A stretch of 64,000 nt of DNA, taken from the NCBI RefSeq assembly GCF_017948245.1, contig NZ_CP072865.1, positions 459,501 to 523,500 on the forward strand, in the 5' to 3' direction. Positions within the stretch are counted from its first letter, which is position 1, and the number at the start of each line of letters is the position of its first letter. The stretch is from Rhizobium sp. NLR16a (GTDB lineage: Bacteria > Pseudomonadota > Alphaproteobacteria > Rhizobiales > Rhizobiaceae). Of the stretch, positions 53,295 to 64,000 are shown piece after piece. Below the pieces are notes generated by a model, which was not told where the DNA came from, searched no databases, and saw only the letters and a program-made list of their open reading frames with translations. Position numbers and translations under genes: made by a program.

Positions 53295-54686
53295 ATGGCA
53301 AATATCGAGAATTCTGCAGGCAAGCCCGATGCCGGACTTGTCCGCAAAGGTCTTATCGAAGCCCTTTTCGCCGCCGTTCTCTCCCTCGGCATGTTCGTTC
53401 TCTATGTCGGCCTAAAAACCGATCAGAACATCAACAACGAGCTGATCATCGTCCAGCGTTGGGGACTGCTGGCGATTTTTGTCGCTATCGCCGCGATCGG
53501 CCGTTTCGCGATGGTCGTTTTCATCAAGCCGAATATCGACCGCCGAAAACTCCGCAAGGCGCGGGAAGGCGATCTCGACATTTCGACCGAGAAGAGTTTC
53601 TTCCATCGGCATTTCCTGAAGATCGCGCTGCTCGCGCTACTGCTTTATCCCATGGTGATCGTGGCGCTCGTCGGCGCTCAGGGCTCGTTGAAATGGGTCG
53701 ACAATTTCGGCATCCAGATCCTGATCTACGTGATGCTCGCGTGGGGACTGAACATCGTCGTCGGCCTCGCGGGCCTTCTCGATCTCGGCTATGTCGCCTT
53801 CTATGCGGTCGGCGCCTATTCCTACGCCCTGCTGTCGAGCTATTTCGGCCTGTCCTTCTGGTTGCTGCTGCCGCTTTCCGGCATTCTCGCAGCGCTCTGG
53901 GGCGTCATTCTCGGCTTCCCGGTGCTGCGCCTGCGCGGCGACTATCTCGCCATCGTCACGCTCGCCTTCGGTGAAATCATCCGCCTCGTCCTGATCAACT
54001 GGACCGACGTGACCAAGGGAACCTTTGGTATCTCGAGCATTCCCAAGGCGACGCTCTTCGGCATTCCTTTCGATGCGACGGCCGGCGGCTTTGCCAAGCT
54101 CTTTCACCTGCCGATGTCTTCCGCGTACTACAAGATTTTCCTCTTCTACCTGATCCTGGCGCTGTGCATGCTGACGGCCTACGTCACCATCCGCCTGCGG
54201 CGCATGCCGATCGGGCGTGCCTGGGAAGCGCTGCGTGAAGACGAGATCGCTTGCCGTTCGCTCGGCATCAACACGGTGACGACCAAGCTGACGGCGTTCG
54301 CGACGGGAGCCATGTTCGGTGGCTTCGCGGGCTCGTTCTTCGCCGCTCGCCAGGGATTCGTCTCGCCGGAATCCTTCATCTTCCTGGAATCGGCCGTCGT
54401 TCTCGCCATCGTCGTTCTCGGCGGCATGGGCTCGCTGACCGGCATTGCGATCGCCGCGATCGTCATGGTGGGCGGTACCGAAGCGCTGCGCGAAATGGAT
54501 TTCCTGAAAGCAGTCTTTGGGCCCGACTTCACGCCGGAACTCTACCGCATGCTGCTCTTCGGTCTCGCCATGGTGGTCGTCATGCTATTCAAACCGCGCG
54601 GTTTCGTCGGATCGCGTGAACCAACCGCCTTCCTCAAGACACGCAAGGCCGTATCTGGAAGCTTCACCAAGGAGGGCCACGGTTGA
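53295..54686 (+). CDS. braE: Branched-chain amino acid ABC transporter permease BraE/LivM
   Basis: A 463-residue permease, second partner of BraD. The long N-terminal part (about 1-115) contains extra helices and a charged cytoplasmic segment, as in other long LivM proteins. The core has [40 protein letters not shown] and [20 protein letters not shown]. It starts 4 bases after braD and its TGA overlaps the braF ATG by one base. Confidence 0.95.
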
Positions 54687-55561
54687 TGAGCCCCGTCACC
54701 AATACGATGTCGAGCGACACGCTTCTCAAGGTCGAGCACCTGTCGATGAAGTTCGGCGGCCTGATGGCCATCAACGACTTTTCCTTCGAGGCCAAGCGCG
54801 GCGACATCACCGCGTTGATCGGTCCGAACGGCGCCGGCAAGACCACCGTCTTCAACTGCATCACCGGCTTCTATAAGCCGACGATGGGGATGATCACGCT
54901 TAATCAGAGAAGCGGCAAGCAGTACCTGCTGGAGCGTCTCCCGGACTTTCGCATCACCAAGGAAGCCAAGGTGGCGCGAACGTTCCAAAACATCCGGCTG
55001 TTTTCCGGCCTGACGGTTCTGGAAAATCTGCTCGTCGCCCAGCACAACAAGCTGATGCAGGCGTCGGGTTATACCATTCTCGGCCTCATCGGCATCGGTC
55101 CCTACAAGCGAGAAGCGGCCGCATCGATCGAGCTGGCGCGCCATTGGCTCGAGAAGGCCGATCTGATCGACCGTGCCGATGATCCGGCAGGCGACCTGCC
55201 TTACGGCGCCCAGCGGCGTCTCGAGATCGCGCGTGCAATGTGCACGGGCCCAGAATTGCTTTGCCTGGACGAACCGGCCGCAGGCCTCAACCCACGCGAA
55301 TCTGCTAAGCTCAACGAGCTTCTGCAGGGCATTCGAGCCGATACCGGAACCTCCATTCTCCTTATCGAGCATGACATGTCTGTGGTTATGGAAATCTCCG
55401 ATCACGTCGTCGTGCTTGAATATGGCCAGAAGATTTCCGATGGCACGCCCGACCATGTGAAGCACGACCCGAAGGTCATTGCGGCCTATCTCGGCGTCGA
55501 GGATGAAGAAGTGGAAGAGGTGATCGCAACCGTCGAGCAGCTCGAAGGAGGCGCAAACTGA
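54686..55561 (+). CDS. braF: Branched-chain amino acid ABC transporter ATPase BraF/LivG
   Basis: A 291-residue ATPase. Walker A GPNGAGKT, the Q-loop region, the LivG-type signature DLPYGAQRRLEIARAM, Walker B LLCLDEPAAGLN and the H-loop ILLIEHDMS are intact. The C-terminal tail (VEDEEVEEVIATVEQLEGG) is acidic and longer than in E. coli LivG. A TTG one codon earlier is possible, but ATG at 54686 follows GGAGGG properly. It pairs with BraG to power BraDE. Confidence 0.95.
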   Translation: MSPVTNTMSSDTLLKVEHLSMKFGGLMAINDFSFEAKRGDITALIGPNGAGKTTVFNCITGFYKPTMGMITLNQRSGKQYLLERLPDFRITKEAKVARTFQNIRLFSGLTVLENLLVAQHNKLMQASGYTILGLIGIGPYKREAAASIELARHWLEKADLIDRADDPAGDLPYGAQRRLEIARAMCTGPELLCLDEPAAGLNPRESAKLNELLQGIRADTGTSILLIEHDMSVVMEISDHVVVLEYGQKISDGTPDHVKHDPKVIAAYLGVEDEEVEEVIATVEQLEGGAN

Positions 55562-56304
55562 TGGGCGATGCAGTCATGACGGGTCAACCGCTTCTTCAGG
55601 TGAATGGCGTCGAAACCTACTACGGCAATATCCGCGCGCTGGCCGGCATCGATGTCGAGGTCAACAAGGGCGAGATCGTCAGTCTGATCGGCGCCAATGG
55701 CGCCGGCAAGTCGACGCTGATGATGACGATCTGCGGCAGCCCCCAGGCCCGTAAGGGCTCCGTCGTCTTCGAGGGTCGCGAGATCACCCGTATGCCGACC
55801 CATGAAATCGCACGCCTGCGCATCGCGCAGTCGCCGGAAGGGCGTCGCATCTTCCCGCGCATGACGGTCATGGAAAACCTCCAGATGGGGGCGGGTCTCG
55901 ACAATCTCAAATATTTCGCCGAAGACGTCGAGAAGATCTTCACGCTCTTCCCGCGTCTCAAGGAACGTCACGCCCAGCGCGGCGGCACGCTTTCGGGCGG
56001 CGAGCAGCAGATGCTGTCGATCGGCCGCGCGCTGATGGCGCGCCCGAAGCTGCTGCTGCTCGACGAACCTTCGCTCGGCCTGGCGCCGCTGATCGTCAAG
56101 GGGATTTTCGAAGCAATCCGGAAGCTCAATGAGCAGGAAGGCCTCACCGTGTTCCTTGTCGAGCAGAATGCATTCGCGGCGCTGAGACTCTCGCACCGCG
56201 CTTACGTGATGGTGAACGGCAAGGTGACCATGAGCGGCTCCGGCAAGGAACTGCTCGCCAATCCGGAAGTCCGCGCCGCCTATCTCGAAGGCGGAAGACA
56301 TTAG
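55561..56304 (+). CDS. braG: Branched-chain amino acid ABC transporter ATPase BraG/LivF
   Basis: A 247-residue ATPase. Walker A GANGAGKST, SPEGRRIFPRMTVMENLQMG (LivF hallmark), signature LSGGEQQMLSIGRALM, Walker B LLLLDEPSLGLAP and VFLVEQNAFAAL are present. The ATG overlaps the braF stop by one base (TGATG), with GGAGG upstream. It forms the ATPase pair with BraF. Confidence 0.95.
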   Translation: MGDAVMTGQPLLQVNGVETYYGNIRALAGIDVEVNKGEIVSLIGANGAGKSTLMMTICGSPQARKGSVVFEGREITRMPTHEIARLRIAQSPEGRRIFPRMTVMENLQMGAGLDNLKYFAEDVEKIFTLFPRLKERHAQRGGTLSGGEQQMLSIGRALMARPKLLLLDEPSLGLAPLIVKGIFEAIRKLNEQEGLTVFLVEQNAFAALRLSHRAYVMVNGKVTMSGSGKELLANPEVRAAYLEGGRH

Positions 56305-56322
56305 TCGAAGGGAGAGTTTGAC

Positions 56323-56676
56323 ATGCAGGGACTTTTCTTCGAAAGCGACGACGGCGTCCGGGTTGTCATTCGCGCCCTCGTCGTACTGATCGGCTTCTGG
56401 ACGGCTTGGCGAGCCGGCAAGGCGGTGGCTGACGGCTGGAACAATTATCCGCTCGCCGTCGTCTACACTTTCCTCCTTGCCTGGGCGATGCAGTTTCTGC
56501 ACCACGCCCTGTTCAATGGGCCGATGCTCAGCGGTCTCTTCTATGGCATCGACTTCGTGACCTTGCTGGTCTTCTCGACGGCCGGCTACCGCTTTCGCCG
56601 TACCAATCAGATGGTCAACAACTATTACTGGCTGTACGAAAAAACTTCCGCGTTTTCGTGGAAGGACAAACATTGA
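56323..56676 (+). CDS. Small membrane protein in bra operon (DUF6867-like)
   Basis: A 117-residue protein with about three hydrophobic segments (VVIRALVVLIGFWTAW, LAVVYTFLLAWAMQFLHHAL and FYGIDFVTLLVFSTAGYRF) and a Tyr-rich C-terminal tail (NNYYWLYEKTSAF). It lies 18 bp after braG, with GGGAG upstream, and before braC. Small proteins of this kind sit in the same place in other rhizobial bra/liv operons, sometimes catalogued as DUF6867 (from memory). A role in assembling or regulating the transporter is inference. Confidence 0.82.
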   Translation: MQGLFFESDDGVRVVIRALVVLIGFWTAWRAGKAVADGWNNYPLAVVYTFLLAWAMQFLHHALFNGPMLSGLFYGIDFVTLLVFSTAGYRFRRTNQMVNNYYWLYEKTSAFSWKDKH

Positions 56677-56796
56677 CAGTCCGTTGAAACTAGGCATGAA
56701 TTGCCTTCAGAGTGGAACAGCTTTCCTGGCGCAGTCGATGGTGGGTAATGCGCCGGGCCTTGGACCAGAACCCGCCCAAAAATTGGGAGTAACAAT

Positions 56797-57918
56797 ATGA
56801 AGAAGTCTCTTCTGTCGGCAGTGGCTCTGACGGCGATGGTCGCCTTCAGCGGCAACGCTTGGGCCGACGTCCTCATCGCTGTCGCTGGTCCGCTGACCGG
56901 CCCGAACGCCGCTTTCGGCGCTCAGCTTCAGAAGGGTGCCGAGCAGGCAGCCGCCGACATCAACGCTGCTGGCGGCATCAACGGCGAGCAGATCAAGATC
57001 GAACTCGGTGACGACGTTTCCGACCCGAAGCAGGGCATTTCGGTCGCCAATAAATTCGTTGCCGACGGCGTCAAGTTCGTCATCGGCCACTTCAACTCGG
57101 GCGTTTCGATTCCGGCTTCGGAAGTCTATGCCGAAAACGGCATCCTCGAAATCACCCCGGCCGCCACGAACCCGAAGTTCACGGAACGGGGCCTCTGGAA
57201 CACGTTCCGCACCTGCGGCCGTGACGACCAGCAGGGCGCCATCGCCGGCAAGTATCTCGCCGACCACTTCAAGGACGCCAAGATCGCCGTCGTTCACGAC
57301 AAGACCCCCTACGGTCAGGGCCTTGCAGACGAAACCAAGAAGGCGATGAATGCCGCCGGCCTGACGGAAGTCATGTACGAAGGCATCAACGTCGGCGACA
57401 AGGACTTCTCGGCGCTCATCGCCAAGATGAAGGAAGCCGGCGTCTCGATCATCTATTGGGGCGGTCTGCACACCGAAGCCGGTCTCATCATCCGTCAGGC
57501 CGCAGACCAGGGCCTGAAGGCAACGCTGGTTTCCGGTGACGGCATCGTTTCGAATGAACTGGCTTCGATCGCTGGTGACGCTGTCGCCGGTACTCTGAAC
57601 ACCTTCGGCCCCGATCCGACGCTGAACCCGGCCAACAAGGAGCTCGTCGAAAAGTTCAAGGCCGCCGGTTTCAACCCAGAAGCCTATACGCTCTACTCCT
57701 ACGCAGCGATGCAGGCGATCGCCGGCGCAGCCAAGGCTGCCGGTTCGGTGGATCCTGAAGCCGTTGCCACGGCCATGAAGGAAAAGGGTCCGTTCCCGAC
57801 CGTTCTCGGCGACATTTCGTTCGACGAAAAGGGCGACCCGAAGATTCCTGGCTACATCATGTACGAATGGAAGAAGGGCGCGGACGGCAAGTACACCTAC
57901 GTCCCGCAGGGCATGTAA
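56797..57918 (+). CDS. braC: Branched-chain amino acid solute-binding protein BraC/LivK
   Basis: A 373-residue periplasmic protein. It has a signal peptide ([20 protein letters not shown]), then the leucine-binding-protein fold: [55 protein letters not shown] and [19 protein letters not shown]. It delivers amino acids to BraDEFG. A 120-bp spacer before it may hold a second promoter, which would explain higher binding-protein levels. GGGAG precedes the ATG; a strong terminator follows. Confidence 0.95.
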
Positions 57919-58094: not shown

Positions 58095-59012
58095 TCACAT
58101 TTCATGCAGAACATGCGTCGCCTTCACGGCCGCCGACGCCCGGTTTTCGACGCCGAGTTTCACGTAGATCTGTTCGAGGTGCTTATTCACGGTGCGCGCC
58201 GACAAACCCAGTATTTCGCCAATGTCACGGTTGGCCTTGCCCTTGGCGATCCAGAGCAGCACTTCGGATTCTCGTTGGGTGAGCGAAAAACGCTGGCGCA
58301 GCATCTCGTCGTCGCTGCGCTGGCTGGCGGCAGTGAGGCGGAAGAGATATTCATCCGGGCCAATTGCGCCTAGGAAGGCGAGCTGCAGCGCCGCCTGGCC
58401 GGCATGGGTGATTGAGATGATGCCGTCGCGCACTGCTGCCCCGCGGTCACGCATCCAGCCGGCGATATGGCGGACGACGATCTCCATGCCATCGTCACTG
58501 CCCATGGCGGCATTGACCAGCCGGGTCGCCTGCGGCGTCGACCAGTGGATCGCGCCGTCGCCCTTGACCGCCAGCAGGTGACGGCCGGCAGCGTCCAGTG
58601 CAACGCGGGCGCTCTGGGCCGAGCGGGCATTGCGCAGATGGACGCGGATGCGGGCGCGCAGTTCGTCGATGTTGATCGGCTTGGTGAGGTAATCGACGCC
58701 GCCGGATTCCAGCGCGTGCACGACATGCTCGGTCTCCGTCAGACCGGTCATGAAGATGACGGGCACCTGCGCTACAGTGGCATTCGCTTTCAGCCTTCGG
58801 CAGGTCTCGAAGCCGTCCATTACGGGCATGACGGCGTCGAGCAGGATGAGATCAGGCGTGATCCGCTCGACGATGCCAAGCGCTGCCGTGCCCGAGGTGG
58901 CGATCAGCACGGAGAAGCCGGATTGTTCGAGCGCGTCTGTGAGGAAACCGAGCGCTTCGGGCGAGTCGTCGACCAGCAGAACGATGTCGCGAGGGAGGGC
59001 CGGCTCAGCCAA
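58095..59012 (-). CDS. Response regulator, REC plus LuxR-type HTH
   Basis: A 305-residue regulator. The receiver (about 10-130) has LLVDDSPEAL, the phosphoacceptor Asp in LILLDAVMPVMDG and YLTKPINI. A middle region of about 100 residues with no recognised domain follows, then a LuxR HTH (FSLTQRESEVLLWIAKGKAN, RDIGEILGLSARTVNKHLEQ). It starts at a TTG inside the end of the kinase gene, overlapping it by 8 bases, so it is translationally coupled and almost certainly receives phosphate from that kinase. The extra middle segment might sense a ligand. Confidence 0.93.
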   Translation of the reverse strand: MAEPALPRDIVLLVDDSPEALGFLTDALEQSGFSVLIATSGTAALGIVERITPDLILLDAVMPVMDGFETCRRLKANATVAQVPVIFMTGLTETEHVVHALESGGVDYLTKPINIDELRARIRVHLRNARSAQSARVALDAAGRHLLAVKGDGAIHWSTPQATRLVNAAMGSDDGMEIVVRHIAGWMRDRGAAVRDGIISITHAGQAALQLAFLGAIGPDEYLFRLTAASQRSDDEMLRQRFSLTQRESEVLLWIAKGKANRDIGEILGLSARTVNKHLEQIYVKLGVENRASAAVKATHVLHEM

Positions 59013-62000
59013 TGGATTCCACCTTTTCGTCGAAGTCGTGCAGGAAGGTCATGAAGCCGGCCAGATCGAAGGCGGCCACATAGGGTCGAAGAGCCTCGGT
59101 GAATGGCCGATTTGCCTCCACCTTGGCAAGGTCCGAAAGCTTGGCTTCGATGCCCCTGATGTAACCGATCTCGCCGAGCCGCAGCAATTCCTGCACATGG
59201 GCTGCACCCGGGCCCAGCATCGGCGCTGCGATCTTTGCAGGAGCGGCGGGGGCGTCATCGGCATAGACCCAGTTCAGGCCAAGATGCAAGGCGAGCTTGT
59301 CGCGCAGCCGGCGGATGTCGACGGGCTTGCCGATCGCATCATTGTGGCTGTCGTCGCTGTCACTTAGAACCGTCGCATCACCGATATTGGCCGAAAGCAT
59401 CACAACCGGTGCTGTCTGGCCGGCCTCGCGCAGACGCGAGACGAGCTGCCAGCCGCTCATGCCGGGCATCAGGATATCGACGAGGAACAGATCGGGCAGG
59501 ATGCCGTCGATCAGCGTCAGGCATTCGGCGCCGCCTGCGGCCGTCAGCACGATGAAATCGAGCGGCGCCAGGATTTCGCGCATCATCTCGCGGTGATCCT
59601 CATTGTCGTCGACGACGACGATGGTGCGGCGCGGACCGTCGTAACCGGCGATGCGTTTTTCTTGCGGCGGCGCGGCGGCGCGCATGACGGCGGACAGCAT
59701 CAGCCGCACGCGGAATGTCGAGCCTTCGTCCTTGACGCTCGATACCGCAATCTCGCCACCAAGCGTGTTGGTCAGAAGCCGGGTGATGGTAAGCCCGAGA
59801 CCGAGGCCCGGCATCGGCCGCACGCTGTCTGCCTCGCCCCGCTGGAAAGGTTCGTAGATCCGCATCAGGTCCTTCTCGGCGATGCCGCGGCCGGTATCGG
59901 TGACGGTGAAGGTCGCGACCTGGCTGCGATAGGCGACATCGAAGGTGACGCTGCCTTCGTCGGTGAACTTGATGGCATTGGAGAGCAGGTTGACGAGAAT
60001 CTGGCGCAGGCGCTTTTCGTCGGTGCGGACGAATTGCGGCAAGGCGGGCGAGCGATCATGGATGAAGGCGAGCCCCTTTGCCTGCGCCTGCGGCCGAAAC
60101 AGCTCGATGATCTGGTCGAGGAAATCCTGGATGTTGATCTCGTTGGAATAGACCTGCAGGCGGCCGGCCTCGATCTTGGAGATATCGAGCAGGCCGTCGA
60201 TCAGCCCGGAGAGATGTTCGGCGCTGCGGCGGATGACCTTGATCGAGGATTGGCGCGGCGCCGGGATCGTTTCGTCGCGTTCGAGGATCTGCGCATAACC
60301 GAGCACGGCGTTCAAAGGCGTGCGCAGCTCGTGGCTGAGGCCGACGACATAGCGGCTCTTGGCGCGGTTGGCAGCCTCGGCCGTCTCCTTGGCGTTCTGC
60401 AGCGCGGCATCGGTTTTCTTGTGGGCGGCGATTTCCTTGAGCAGCAGCGTGTTCTGACGGGAGGATTCCTCCTCGGCAACGACACGGCTGTCATGGGCGA
60501 GCACATAGAACCAGCAGACAACGCCTGAAATCACCGAAAACACGAAGAAGACGATGAGGATCGTGCGATTGACCACGTCTGCCGTTTCCGGCGAAGCGGA
60601 GGCAACCTGATGGGCGATCATCGCCAGGATCGCGCCGATGGCGGTCAGCGCCAGCGCAACGGCGATGGCGTAGCGGCCGAGGCGCGTCGTCAGCTTGCCC
60701 AGAATGCTCTCGGGCAGCAGCGTTCTCGCGACCGTGCCGACCTGGGCATTGAAGCGAGCGGCTGGCTTGCACATGTCGTGGCAGCGGCTGTCGAGCGAAC
60801 AGCAGAGCGAGCAGATCGGTGCGACGTAGGCCGGACACCAGGCCATATCCTCTGGCTCGAATGGATGCTCGCAGACGGAACAGGTGATATTCGTCTGGTT
60901 CTTCCAACTCTGGCGCGGCTTGCGCGCGAGGTAGAATTTTCCCTTTGTCGCCCAGGCGAGCGCCGGCGTGGCGATGAGGGCGATGACGAGGGTGATATAG
61001 GGGGCGAGTGAAGCGGCTGTCTCGCCGAAGGCGCCGAAATGGGCGACCAGCGATATCGTCGCCGACAGCGTCATGGCGCCGAGGCCGACCGGGTTGATGT
61101 CGTAGAGATGGGCGCGCTTGAACTCGATGCCAGGAGGGGCAAGTCCCAGCGGCTTGTTGATGAAGAGATCGGCCGAGATCGTGCAGAGCCAGGCCATGGC
61201 GATGATCGAGAAGATGCCGAGCGTCTCTTCCAGCAGCCGGTAGATGCCGAGTTCCATCAGGAGCAGGGCGATTGCGACGTTGAAGACAAGCCAGATGACG
61301 CGGCCGGGATGGCTGTGGGTCAGCCGCGAGAAGAAGTTCGACCAGGCGAGCGAGCCGGCATAGGCGTTCATCACGTTGATCTTGAGCTGCGAAACGACGA
61401 CGAAGGCGGCCATCAGCAGCAGTGTGGCGTTATGCCAGGGAACCATGTAGCCGAAGGCGGTCAGATACATCTGCGCCGGATCGGCGGCACGGTCGAGAGG
61501 CACGCCCGAGGCGAGGGTCAGCACGACGAGGAACGAGCCGGCAAGCAGCTTCGGTGCGCCGATGATGACCCAGCCGGGACCGGCGAGGAAGACGGCGAGA
61601 CGATGGCGCCACTTGCGCTGCGAGACCGGCGGCAGGAAGCGCAGGAAGTCGGCCTGTTCGCCGATCTGCGACATCAGCGCCAGGATGACGGCGGAGGCCG
61701 CGCCGAATTCGACCAGATCGAATTCGGCAACGGTGCCAGCCGGACCCGAAGCATGATGGATGCCGGCGAAGGCGCGCCAGAGATCGAACTTTTCCCAGTC
61801 CATGAAGGCGATGAAGATGAAGGGCAGGATATTCAGCACGATCCAGAAGGGCTGGGTCATCAGCTGGAACTTGCTGATCAGCCGCACGCCGTGCGTCACC
61901 AGCGGGATCACCATGACGGCGCTGATGATATAGCCGATCCAGAGCGGGATGCCGAGGGTGAGCTCCAGCGCCCCGGACATGATCGAGGCCTCGATCGCAA

Positions 62001-62388
62001 ACAGCATGAAGGTGAAGCCCGCATAGATCAGCGAGGTGATGGTCGAGCCGATGTAGCCGAAGCCGGCGCCGCGGGTCAGAAGATCAATGTCGACGCCGTG
62101 CCGGATGGCGTATCGGCTGATCGGCAGACCGATCGCCAGCATGGCGACCGAGGCGACGATGATCGCATAAAAGGCATTGGTGGTGCCGTAGGAGAGGGTG
62201 ATCGCGGCGCCGATCGCTTCGAGCGCCAGGAAGGAAATTGCACCGATGGCCGTCTGCGAGATGCGCTCGGAGGAAAAATGCCGGGCGCTCTTTGCGGTGA
62301 AGCGCAGCGCGTAATCTTCCAGCGTCTGGTTGGCGACCCAGCGATTATATTCGCGTCTCACCGGAATGATGCGTTGGCGCGCTGTCAT
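59005..62388 (-). CDS. NCS1 permease-hybrid histidine kinase fusion with Cys-rich linker
   Basis: A 1127-residue membrane protein. Residues about 20-480 are a nucleobase:cation symporter-1 (purine/cytosine/allantoin permease) domain with about twelve helices. A Cys cluster follows (C503, C506, C518, C526, C529, C530, C536, C540), resembling a zinc or Fe-S site. Two more helices (about 571-592 and 608-632) lead to a coiled coil, a HisKA domain with H686 (GLSHELRTPL), an ATPase with NLLSNAIKF, DTGRGIA and GLGLGLTI, and a receiver with Asp971 (LVDILMPGMSG). A C-terminal helical tail follows. The plan parallels CbrA and PrlS, where a Na+/solute symporter domain is fused to a kinase, but with another transporter family. 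It probably senses or transports a nucleobase-like solute (inference). Confidence 0.92.
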   Translation of the reverse strand: MTARQRIIPVRREYNRWVANQTLEDYALRFTAKSARHFSSERISQTAIGAISFLALEAIGAAITLSYGTTNAFYAIIVASVAMLAIGLPISRYAIRHGVDIDLLTRGAGFGYIGSTITSLIYAGFTFMLFAIEASIMSGALELTLGIPLWIGYIISAVMVIPLVTHGVRLISKFQLMTQPFWIVLNILPFIFIAFMDWEKFDLWRAFAGIHHASGPAGTVAEFDLVEFGAASAVILALMSQIGEQADFLRFLPPVSQRKWRHRLAVFLAGPGWVIIGAPKLLAGSFLVVLTLASGVPLDRAADPAQMYLTAFGYMVPWHNATLLLMAAFVVVSQLKINVMNAYAGSLAWSNFFSRLTHSHPGRVIWLVFNVAIALLLMELGIYRLLEETLGIFSIIAMAWLCTISADLFINKPLGLAPPGIEFKRAHLYDINPVGLGAMTLSATISLVAHFGAFGETAASLAPYITLVIALIATPALAWATKGKFYLARKPRQSWKNQTNITCSVCEHPFEPEDMAWCPAYVAPICSLCCSLDSRCHDMCKPAARFNAQVGTVARTLLPESILGKLTTRLGRYAIAVALALTAIGAILAMIAHQVASASPETADVVNRTILIVFFVFSVISGVVCWFYVLAHDSRVVAEEESSRQNTLLLKEIAAHKKTDAALQNAKETAEAANRAKSRYVVGLSHELRTPLNAVLGYAQILERDETIPAPRQSSIKVIRRSAEHLSGLIDGLLDISKIEAGRLQVYSNEINIQDFLDQIIELFRPQAQAKGLAFIHDRSPALPQFVRTDEKRLRQILVNLLSNAIKFTDEGSVTFDVAYRSQVATFTVTDTGRGIAEKDLMRIYEPFQRGEADSVRPMPGLGLGLTITRLLTNTLGGEIAVSSVKDEGSTFRVRLMLSAVMRAAAPPQEKRIAGYDGPRRTIVVVDDNEDHREMMREILAPLDFIVLTAAGGAECLTLIDGILPDLFLVDILMPGMSGWQLVSRLREAGQTAPVVMLSANIGDATVLSDSDDSHNDAIGKPVDIRRLRDKLALHLGLNWVYADDAPAAPAKIAAPMLGPGAAHVQELLRLGEIGYIRGIEAKLSDLAKVEANRPFTEALRPYVAAFDLAGFMTFLHDFDEKVESIG

Positions 62389-62567
62389 GCCCTCTTTCCG
62401 GCACTCTCGTTGGGCTCATCGTTTCCACTGCAGTTTTGGCGGGATGGACGGGAAAGGCAAGAGGCTGAGCACTGGCGGATTCGCAGAACAGTAATATTTT
62501 TGAAACGGCGCTGTCACATAAGCGCTCTAACCCTCCTGCCGTTCGTTCAACCATTTCGGGTGCAGCC

Positions 62568-64000
62568 ATGTCTGTTTCAAAACTTTGCCGCCTGAGCACC
62601 GCTCTTGTCTGCCTCCTTTCGATCGTGCCATCGCTTGCCGCCGCCGAGCAGACCACGGCCGCGAAAGCGCCTTATGCTGAAACAGGAAACACCAATAAGC
62701 GCGGTGACGCATGCTTCTCGACGGTGGACACCAATGCTGCCGTCCATCTTCTCTCCGGCCTTCTCGAGGTCTGGACCCCGCGCACGCCTTTCGTCGATGC
62801 CGGTGTGGAAGCCGCAGCCAAGGACAATTGCCCTGCAGTCGCCAAGACGGATTGGGACGGCATCCCTTTCAGCAAGACCGACGGCCAGATCGTCAACAAG
62901 CCAGTCCACGATGCGAACATCGCCTATGTCGTGAAGGCGACGAAGGCGCGGACGGCCGAGCAGGCGGTTGCCGCCTATCTCGACGATCGGCGCGGCAAGA
63001 ATACCAGCATCGTCGATGGTCTCGGTCCGCTGACGGATGCCTGGAAGGCCGGTTCCAAGCAGATCACCACGATCACTGAGGTGGCGGCCGACGCGACGAC
63101 GGTCAAATATGACGACAAGGGTAACAATCGCGGCGCCGGCAGCAAACCGGACACGGAAAACAAGACCGATGCCAATCCGGACATGGGTCTCGCCATCGAC
63201 TTCATCAACGCCGCGAGCGGCGATGGCTCGACAGAGCCCGCCAAGCGCTATTTCAAATATGCCCGCCCCTATCGCTGGAGCCCGGACGTTTCGGTCGTCC
63301 CGACGCTCGAGCCCGCCAAAAGCGGCAAGCCGGTCGAGGACGGTGGCTTCCCCAGCGGACATACGGCGGAAGCCTGGCGGGATGCGCTCGCCATGGCCTA
63401 TCTGGTGCCGCAGCGATTCCAGGAAATGATCGCGCGTGCCAGCGAAATGGGTGAAGACCGCATCCTTGCCGGAATGCACTCTCCCCTCGACGTTATGGGC
63501 GGCCGCATGCTCGGCACCGCCACGGTCGTTTATAACCTGAACAAGTCCGACGATTCAGCGCTGAAGAGCGCCGCCTACGCCCAGGCGCAATCATGGCTGA
63601 TCGCCAAGTCGGGTGTTGCGGATGCGGGTGCGCTCGAAGTCGCAGCCCATGCGGCGCCACTTTCGGCGGACCGTTTCGCCGATCATGATGCCAATCGCGC
63701 TTACGTTCTGCAGCGCCTGAGCTATGGCCTGCCGACGATCCATGCGACCGATCAGCCGGCTCGCGTGCCGGAGGGCGCCGAAACGCTTCTCGAAACCCGT
63801 CTGCCTTATCTCGATGGTGAACAGCGCCGCGAGGTGCTTGGCACAACGGAAATCGCTTCGGGCTATCCGCTGCTCGACGACGCGGAAGGCTACGGTCGCC
63901 TCAATCTCTTTGCCGCCGCCGACGGCTATGGCGCCTTCAAACAGGATGTGACCGTGATGATGGATGCGGCAAAGGGTGGCTTCAATGCGATCGACACCTG
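62568..64000 (+). CDS. Secreted PAP2-type acid phosphatase (partial at window end)
   Basis: The frame opens at ATG 62568 with a signal peptide (RLSTALVCLLSIVPSLAAAE) and runs 477 codons off the right edge. The bacterial acid phosphatase signature is present in pieces: KYARPYRW, then FPSGHTAEAW and GEDRILAGMHSPLDVMGGR (catalytic His residues in SGHT and AGMHSPLD). Class A acid phosphatases have about 250 residues; here the match ends near residue 320 and at least 150 more follow, ending in LFAAADGYGAFKQDVTVMMD. This extension might lead into an autotransporter-type passenger, which cannot be checked in the window. No clear ribosome site is visible. Confidence 0.85.
   Translation, partial: MSVSKLCRLSTALVCLLSIVPSLAAAEQTTAAKAPYAETGNTNKRGDACFSTVDTNAAVHLLSGLLEVWTPRTPFVDAGVEAAAKDNCPAVAKTDWDGIPFSKTDGQIVNKPVHDANIAYVVKATKARTAEQAVAAYLDDRRGKNTSIVDGLGPLTDAWKAGSKQITTITEVAADATTVKYDDKGNNRGAGSKPDTENKTDANPDMGLAIDFINAASGDGSTEPAKRYFKYARPYRWSPDVSVVPTLEPAKSGKPVEDGGFPSGHTAEAWRDALAMAYLVPQRFQEMIARASEMGEDRILAGMHSPLDVMGGRMLGTATVVYNLNKSDDSALKSAAYAQAQSWLIAKSGVADAGALEVAAHAAPLSADRFADHDANRAYVLQRLSYGLPTIHATDQPARVPEGAETLLETRLPYLDGEQRREVLGTTEIASGYPLLDDAEGYGRLNLFAAADGYGAFKQDVTVMMDAAKGGFNAIDT

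Follow-up and report, generated by a model that had tools for sequence, protein, structure and literature searches.

A gene in the window analysed here (the whole stretch of 64,000 nucleotides from Rhizobium sp. NLR16a, to whose first letter all positions below refer) encodes a hybrid histidine kinase that begins with an NCS1-like transporter domain. Together with the LuxR-type response regulator encoded beside it, this kinase is likely to constitute a two-component transceptor system for urea and short-chain amides. This reading draws on the observed architecture of the protein, its conservation, its gene neighbourhood, its paralogues that consist of the transporter without the kinase (hereafter solos), and a palindromic DNA box and the position of that box. 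With somewhat less assurance, though still on balance in favour, we also regard these proteins as an undescribed and widespread class of NCS1-derived urea/amide receptors, comprising solos that sit in urease, formamidase or amidase operons and kinases that drive the urt genes via the box TACGTCAnnTGACGTA, with a two-metal cysteine module as the coupler.

The features concerned are collected in Table 1. The intact HisKA-HATPase-REC kinase recognized in a preliminary description of this DNA is borne out by the three Pfam matches and by the presence of H686, D971 and K1021; the partner regulator possesses D59 and K111. In an AlphaFold model that covers residues 1-661 (33 sequences, mean pLDDT 84.8), the transporter bundle is complete, a small strand-strand-helix unit lies at the cysteines, and two long helices come ahead of the kinase. 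The latter correspond to extra membrane helices, spanning 569-598 and 600-660 in the model, with hydropathy peaks at 574-592 and 609-627. This membrane hairpin between the cysteines and the kinase had been missed in the preliminary description, as had the overlapping response-regulator gene. Shorter forms of the fusion were encountered at two loci (L124, 3002-5683, and L125, 3166-5862; open frames of 894 and 899 residues), which retain the transporter and the full set of eight cysteines but have a different kinase end without a receiver domain; a formamidase gene lies nearby, and no LuxR-type regulator was found nearby.

Table 1. Features of the window and genomic settings of the solo relatives opened
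Feature	Window position	Strand	Remarks
NCS1-type transporter / hybrid histidine kinase	59005..62388	minus (62388 -> 59005)	1127 aa; ATG at 62388
NCS1-fold transporter domain, residues 1-488	60925..62388	minus	predicted ligand-binding domain
Eight-cysteine module, residues 503-540	60769..60882	minus	predicted hairpin-helix fold
Two-helix membrane hairpin, residues 569-632	60493..60684	minus	between cysteine module and kinase
HisKA, residues 677-742	60163..60360	minus	phospho-acceptor H686; above Pfam cut-off
HATPase_c, residues 789-898	59695..60024	minus	N, G1 and G2 boxes; above Pfam cut-off
Receiver domain (Response_reg), residues 923-1032	59293..59622	minus	D971 and K1021; above Pfam cut-off
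Response regulator	58095..59012	minus	305 aa; REC and GerE (LuxR-type) DNA-binding domains; overlaps kinase gene by 8 bases
Divergent intergenic region	62389..62567		179 bases, kinase versus phosphatase-like gene; box absent
Acinetobacter solo			ahead of ureE, ureF, ureG, ureJ, ureD, ureA, ureB, ureC (urease operon)
Klebsiella solo			behind ureG, in urease operon
Moraxella solo			adjoins fmdA
Tsukamurella solo			adjoins fmdA
Arthrobacter solo			aliphatic amidase gene close by
Methylovirgula solo			single stretch: formamidase, kinase, regulator, solo, amidase

The N-terminal part had been described as a full NCS1 transporter, and this assignment holds for the fold and the relatives but not as a direct profile match. 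PF02133 did not match the window protein at E up to 1, Pfam searches gave nothing over the first 490 residues beyond two chance-level matches (HisKA, HATPase_c and REC were found downstream), and neither Pfam nor NCBIfam searches gave this part a name. A fold comparison was needed because a profile of 34 N-terminal rows likewise found no match at E up to 1 among the PDB sequences; in that comparison the transporter model came closest to CodB and Mhp1 among the LeuT folds. Furthermore, the PF02133 cut-off was exceeded by three (P0290, P0304 and P0310) of eight solos scanned, which had been picked for their precomputed label and are about 40% identical (37.7-44.0%) to the N-terminal part of the kinase. 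It was also exceeded by the solo L121, which gave a profile match at E 1.3e-31. On account of these relatives and of the fold comparison we place the window transporter as NCS1-like.

The predicted pocket residues E133, Q241, E244, Q245, K336, N338 and N341 are identical in 62 of 62 kinase rows and in all 120 of 120 solos. Across the 24 positions compared, most are identical between kinases and solos, with a few single rows deviating; Y122 is mostly Phe in the solos, and position 129 is Phe or Leu in kinases and solos alike. In Mhp1 we take the Trp and Gln of TM3, W117 and Q121, to be pocket residues and S312 to be a sodium-site residue. The position of W117 is occupied here by Phe or Leu, that of Q121 by an invariant Glu, and that of S312 by Lys in 62/62 kinase rows and 120/120 solos; the place corresponding to W220 is ambiguous.

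The genes around the kinase point to urea and related amides. Directly past the window end, the genome itself continues with the phosphatase-like gene, followed by urtA, urtB, urtC, urtD and urtE, each of which exceeds its NCBIfam cut-off, and by a urease beta subunit gene. The phosphatase-like gene (window 62568-64000), which sits between the kinase and urtA, has a partial match below cut-off to a PhoC model. On the other side, frames at window 53295-57918 resemble by eye a branched-chain amino-acid type ABC operon that ends beside the response regulator; these were set aside as a candidate partner operon, since it is the urt genes on the opposite side that recur. Of 66 kinase copies found, 51 with about 4-8 kb of flank were analysed (the 15 left out include the window's own), and urt, urease, formamidase or amidase genes occur at 48 of these 51 loci. 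By gene, UrtA-like sequences, counted as any tblastn match at E 1e-8, were found at 38 loci, UreC at 9, FmdA at 21 and AmiE at 5. The UrtA-like proteins are 36-42% identical to the UrtA of this genome at 33 of the 38 loci and 67-78% identical at the other 5, and at the lower identity they may thus carry another amide. None of the urt, urease, formamidase or amidase genes was seen at the remaining three loci of the 51, namely L176, L179 and L130 (a contig of only 4.8 kb); at L176 and L179 seven neighbour frames were scanned and held no urea gene. A homologue of the regulator is present at 49 of the 51 loci, aligned over more than 240 residues in 45 and over the receiver part only in four, in one of which (L182) the frame ends by eye in a LuxR-type stretch. 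The other two loci, L183 and L184, lack a regulator homologue, and their kinases end differently.

Among 398 sampled genomes of the phylum, 54 match the N-terminal query and 52 of those possess the cysteine-module kinase. UrtA is encoded in 51 of these 52 kinase genomes versus 169 of all 398 (counts uncorrected for kinship), and at least 36 of 57 kinase copies have, no more than 10 kb away, a UrtA that exceeds the NCBIfam cut-off. In Sinorhizobium meliloti urtABCDE lies three genes from the kinase, and on the Klebsiella plasmid p69-1 (NZ_CP025457.1, locus L204; IncFIB/IncFII) urtABCDE and a formamidase gene adjoin it. A homologue was also found in Sinorhizobium fredii NGR234. The N-terminal query matches 342 plasmid records from Klebsiella in all; at least two of these are solos, and one that was opened has the kinase. 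Gene neighbourhood does not tell urea apart from other amides as the ligand, or a sensing role from a transport role.

The solos have similar company. In six of seven solo loci opened from a plasmid collection, urease, formamidase or amidase genes accompany the transporter (Table 1), and the seventh, from Streptomyces, had no such neighbour; outside this set, a carbon-nitrogen hydrolase gene follows the solo L121. A transcriptome table comparing wild-type Mycobacterium smegmatis with a glnR mutant contains msmeg_3402, a putative cytosine permease, together with msmeg_3403, a formamidase (PMC4222082); msmeg_3402 is a candidate for membership in the solo family. In a quick tree the solos other than L121 fall inside the kinases and the L121 branch is very long, a placement to which we give no weight.

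A DNA element that recurs upstream of urtA provides a further link. From 41 divergent kinase-urtA regions, with 12 duplicate loci skipped by hand, the 36 under 900 bases were searched, and the best shared motif was the palindrome TACGTCAnnTGACGTA, of the form TACGTCA-NN-TGACGTA. At width 18 it scored 843 in the 36 regions versus 394, 401 and 412 in three shuffled sets, which keep base content only, and the score is inflated by related genomes; sites were poor in two of the regions (L172 and L180). The window contains no copy at up to three mismatches. A degenerate form, TACGYMANNTKRCGTA, written by hand from the sites, has a single exact match in the 6.6-Mb genome from which the window comes, at G000:C1:524047-524062. 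This match lies about 550 bases past the window and 90 bases before the urtA start codon as read, in a region that was unused in motif finding. The 50 other kinase genomes hold 22 exact boxes in 19 genomes, and 14 of these boxes are situated either a short way upstream of urtA or in the interval that separates it from the kinase. Eight of these 14 fall outside the motif-finding regions (in genomes G043, G107, G253, G265, G366, G389, G246 and G142), the one in G389 being 40 kb away from the kinase. A fifteenth box is 1.3 kb before an fmdA gene, and for the remaining seven tblastn showed neither urea nor amide genes in the vicinity. By comparison, 50 genomes that lack the kinase, of which 48 have urtA, contain seven exact boxes, none of the seven near urtA.

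The total number of boxes does not exceed that of a reversed control pattern, with 22 versus 18 exact matches in the 50 other kinase genomes and 5 versus 17 at up to one mismatch in the window's own genome, so that the evidence lies only in the position of the box. Scoring boxes also occur upstream of urtA in S. meliloti and on Klebsiella p69-1, and upstream of the kinase at L176. Around the kinase at nine loci where it is beside urease no scoring box was found, and the other boxes within one mismatch in the window's own genome had no urea link by eye. A near-perfect palindrome, TACGTCATTCGACGTA, is located in that genome about 340 bases before a 297-aa frame (L218 5071-5086; G000:C1:1679070), and is possibly a further target or a chance occurrence.

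The eight cysteines of the module (503, 506, 518, 526, 529, 530, 536 and 540; the whole protein has three others) form the pattern CxxC-x11-C-x7-CxxCC-x5-C-x3-C. The count of eight within 503-540 agrees with the preliminary description, and every one of the 148 kinase rows retains all eight. Of these rows, 62 are less than 65% identical in the N-terminal part, one is the window's own, and some represent genes fetched twice; the tally excludes two solo rows, L121 and L122. In the 398 sampled genomes, 57 module matches and 57 kinase-fused transporter matches fall in the same open frames, a module count that may miss modules less similar to the query. Among the best 120 solo relatives, 119 end in a shorter, reduced tail with CxxC...CxxC. 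In the 115 solos with standard spacing the neighbouring cysteine equivalent to C530 is present in none, and one further cysteine lies between the CxxC pairs in 48. This suggests that the eight cysteines may comprise two sets, 503/506/526/529 and 518/530/536/540, a division that is not clean because of those 48 solos. The idea that the eight arose together with the kinase was dropped, as the Methylovirgula solo, which has no kinase, carries all of them. A fold search with the module returned mostly RING, PHD and FYVE two-zinc fingers as top matches, all at E 0.5 or worse and none of them significant; the topology would place the module in the cytoplasm, and structural zinc appears the likeliest content. 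The preliminary description had further envisaged that metal or redox state, too, might be coupled to phosphorylation. This is a slight possibility, and its stronger version, in which the module itself does the sensing (of zinc, iron-sulphur or thiol redox) and the transporter plays a subordinate part, strikes us as highly improbable. The invariance of the eight cysteines in the kinases would suit such a sensor, but the same module ends the kinase-less Methylovirgula protein, and its reduction in 119/120 solos, along with the loss of the CxxC pairs in two actinobacterial solos, is more in keeping with a structural site than with a sensing one. Moreover, no metal-transport or redox gene was recognised among the 25 commonest neighbour families, many of which are wrong-strand frames and some of which are unnamed.

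The same part-named set of 25 families bears on the reading that what the protein detects or takes up is a nucleobase, hydantoin or allantoin, in the manner of canonical NCS1 carriers, as the preliminary description had proposed. The proximity of the fold to CodB and Mhp1 favours it, as does the database labelling of many solos as allantoin or cytosine permeases; allantoin breakdown, moreover, yields urea, and the urea genes could hence be downstream of it. Nevertheless, no purine, pyrimidine or hydantoin gene was recognised in the set, those neighbours that were named have urea, formamide and aliphatic amides as their substrates, and other residues stand where Mhp1 has its TM3 Trp and Gln. 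For these reasons the nucleobase or hydantoin ligand is left unsupported, and we consider this reading unlikely. We likewise give little probability to a role of the NCS1 domain in sensing general nitrogen status or membrane energy, or as a mere anchor, with the urea genes as one target among others. It finds a parallel in CbrA, which transports histidine, yet histidine had no significant effect on the activities measured in the report concerned (PMC7096432). Against it stand the invariant polar pocket residues common to kinases and solos, and the chemical likeness of the substrates used by the neighbouring enzymes, which themselves vary between urease, formamidase and amidase.

Under the preferred urea/amide transceptor reading, the NCS1-type domain would bind urea, with formamide or acetamide as the probable ligand in other clades, and would move through a transport-like cycle, perhaps importing the ligand too. 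The cysteine module, which probably forms a pair of Cys4 metal sites facing the cytoplasm, would relay this movement to the kinase together with the membrane hairpin. Phosphate from H686 would then reach D59 of the LuxR-type regulator, either by way of D971 or without that step. The regulator may in turn bind TACGTCAnnTGACGTA and switch on urtABCDE and, depending on the clade, formamidase or amidase genes.

The closest known parallels are the SLC5/STAC kinases (CbrA, CrbS/MxtR, RpuS and PrlS), which similarly combine an N-terminal LeuT-fold transporter, a linker module and a histidine kinase. The fusion of an NCS1-type transporter with a hybrid kinase through an invariant cysteine module, likened in the preliminary description to those proteins, is supported as an analogous arrangement. 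PrlS in particular is also described as a hybrid kinase with a LuxR-family partner (PMC7918813), and RpuS/R is reported to raise the expression of a transporter operon (PMC9100948), as we propose for the window system. CbrA binds and transports histidine and phosphorylates its own regulator (PMC7096432), and thereby shows a transporter-kinase of this general plan to be workable. There are also differences. The window transporter is NCS1-like, with no SSF match in Pfam and with NCS1 structures ranking well above SLC5. An eight-cysteine module and a two-helix hairpin together form its linker, which is cysteine-rich and not a four-helix bundle in the model; there is no PAS match in Pfam, and the predicted ligand is urea or an amide. 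From CodB and Mhp1 (PF02133) it differs in the lack of a PF02133 match, the replaced TM3 Trp and Gln and the Lys at the S312 position. The solos of Acinetobacter, Klebsiella and Streptomyces, which carry the name of allantoin or cytosine permease, share its predicted pocket and differ in having no kinase and mostly a reduced cysteine tail. The best reading, in our view, is that a urea/amide transceptor with an NCS1-type domain joins the known kind of transporter-kinases represented by CbrA, CrbS and RpuS.

Control of urea use in bacteria is usually explained by internal nitrogen status, which is what NtrC, AmtR and GlnR read. The UrtABCDE transport operon governed by these regulators is the same as the one considered here, but the window system is a proposed membrane receptor. 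Control of urtABCDE by AmtR is described in the mycobacterial study cited above (PMC4222082). If the proposal is true, the control of urea use would gain, through a dedicated membrane receptor, an input that is external and specific to the substrate, and substrates would be assigned to permeases that databases call allantoin or cytosine permeases. It would also place beside CbrA a second and independent example of a transporter that has become a kinase receptor, one in which the transporter-to-kinase coupling could be tested on a small, invariant cysteine module. By the count of 52 of 398 sampled genomes, the system is common. No study of an NCS1-kinase fusion was recognised among the titles and abstracts of the literature searched, whose coverage excludes most subscription journals. 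The fusion is nevertheless visible in some automatic names, such as a JGI name that combines a histidine kinase with a purine-cytosine permease-like protein.
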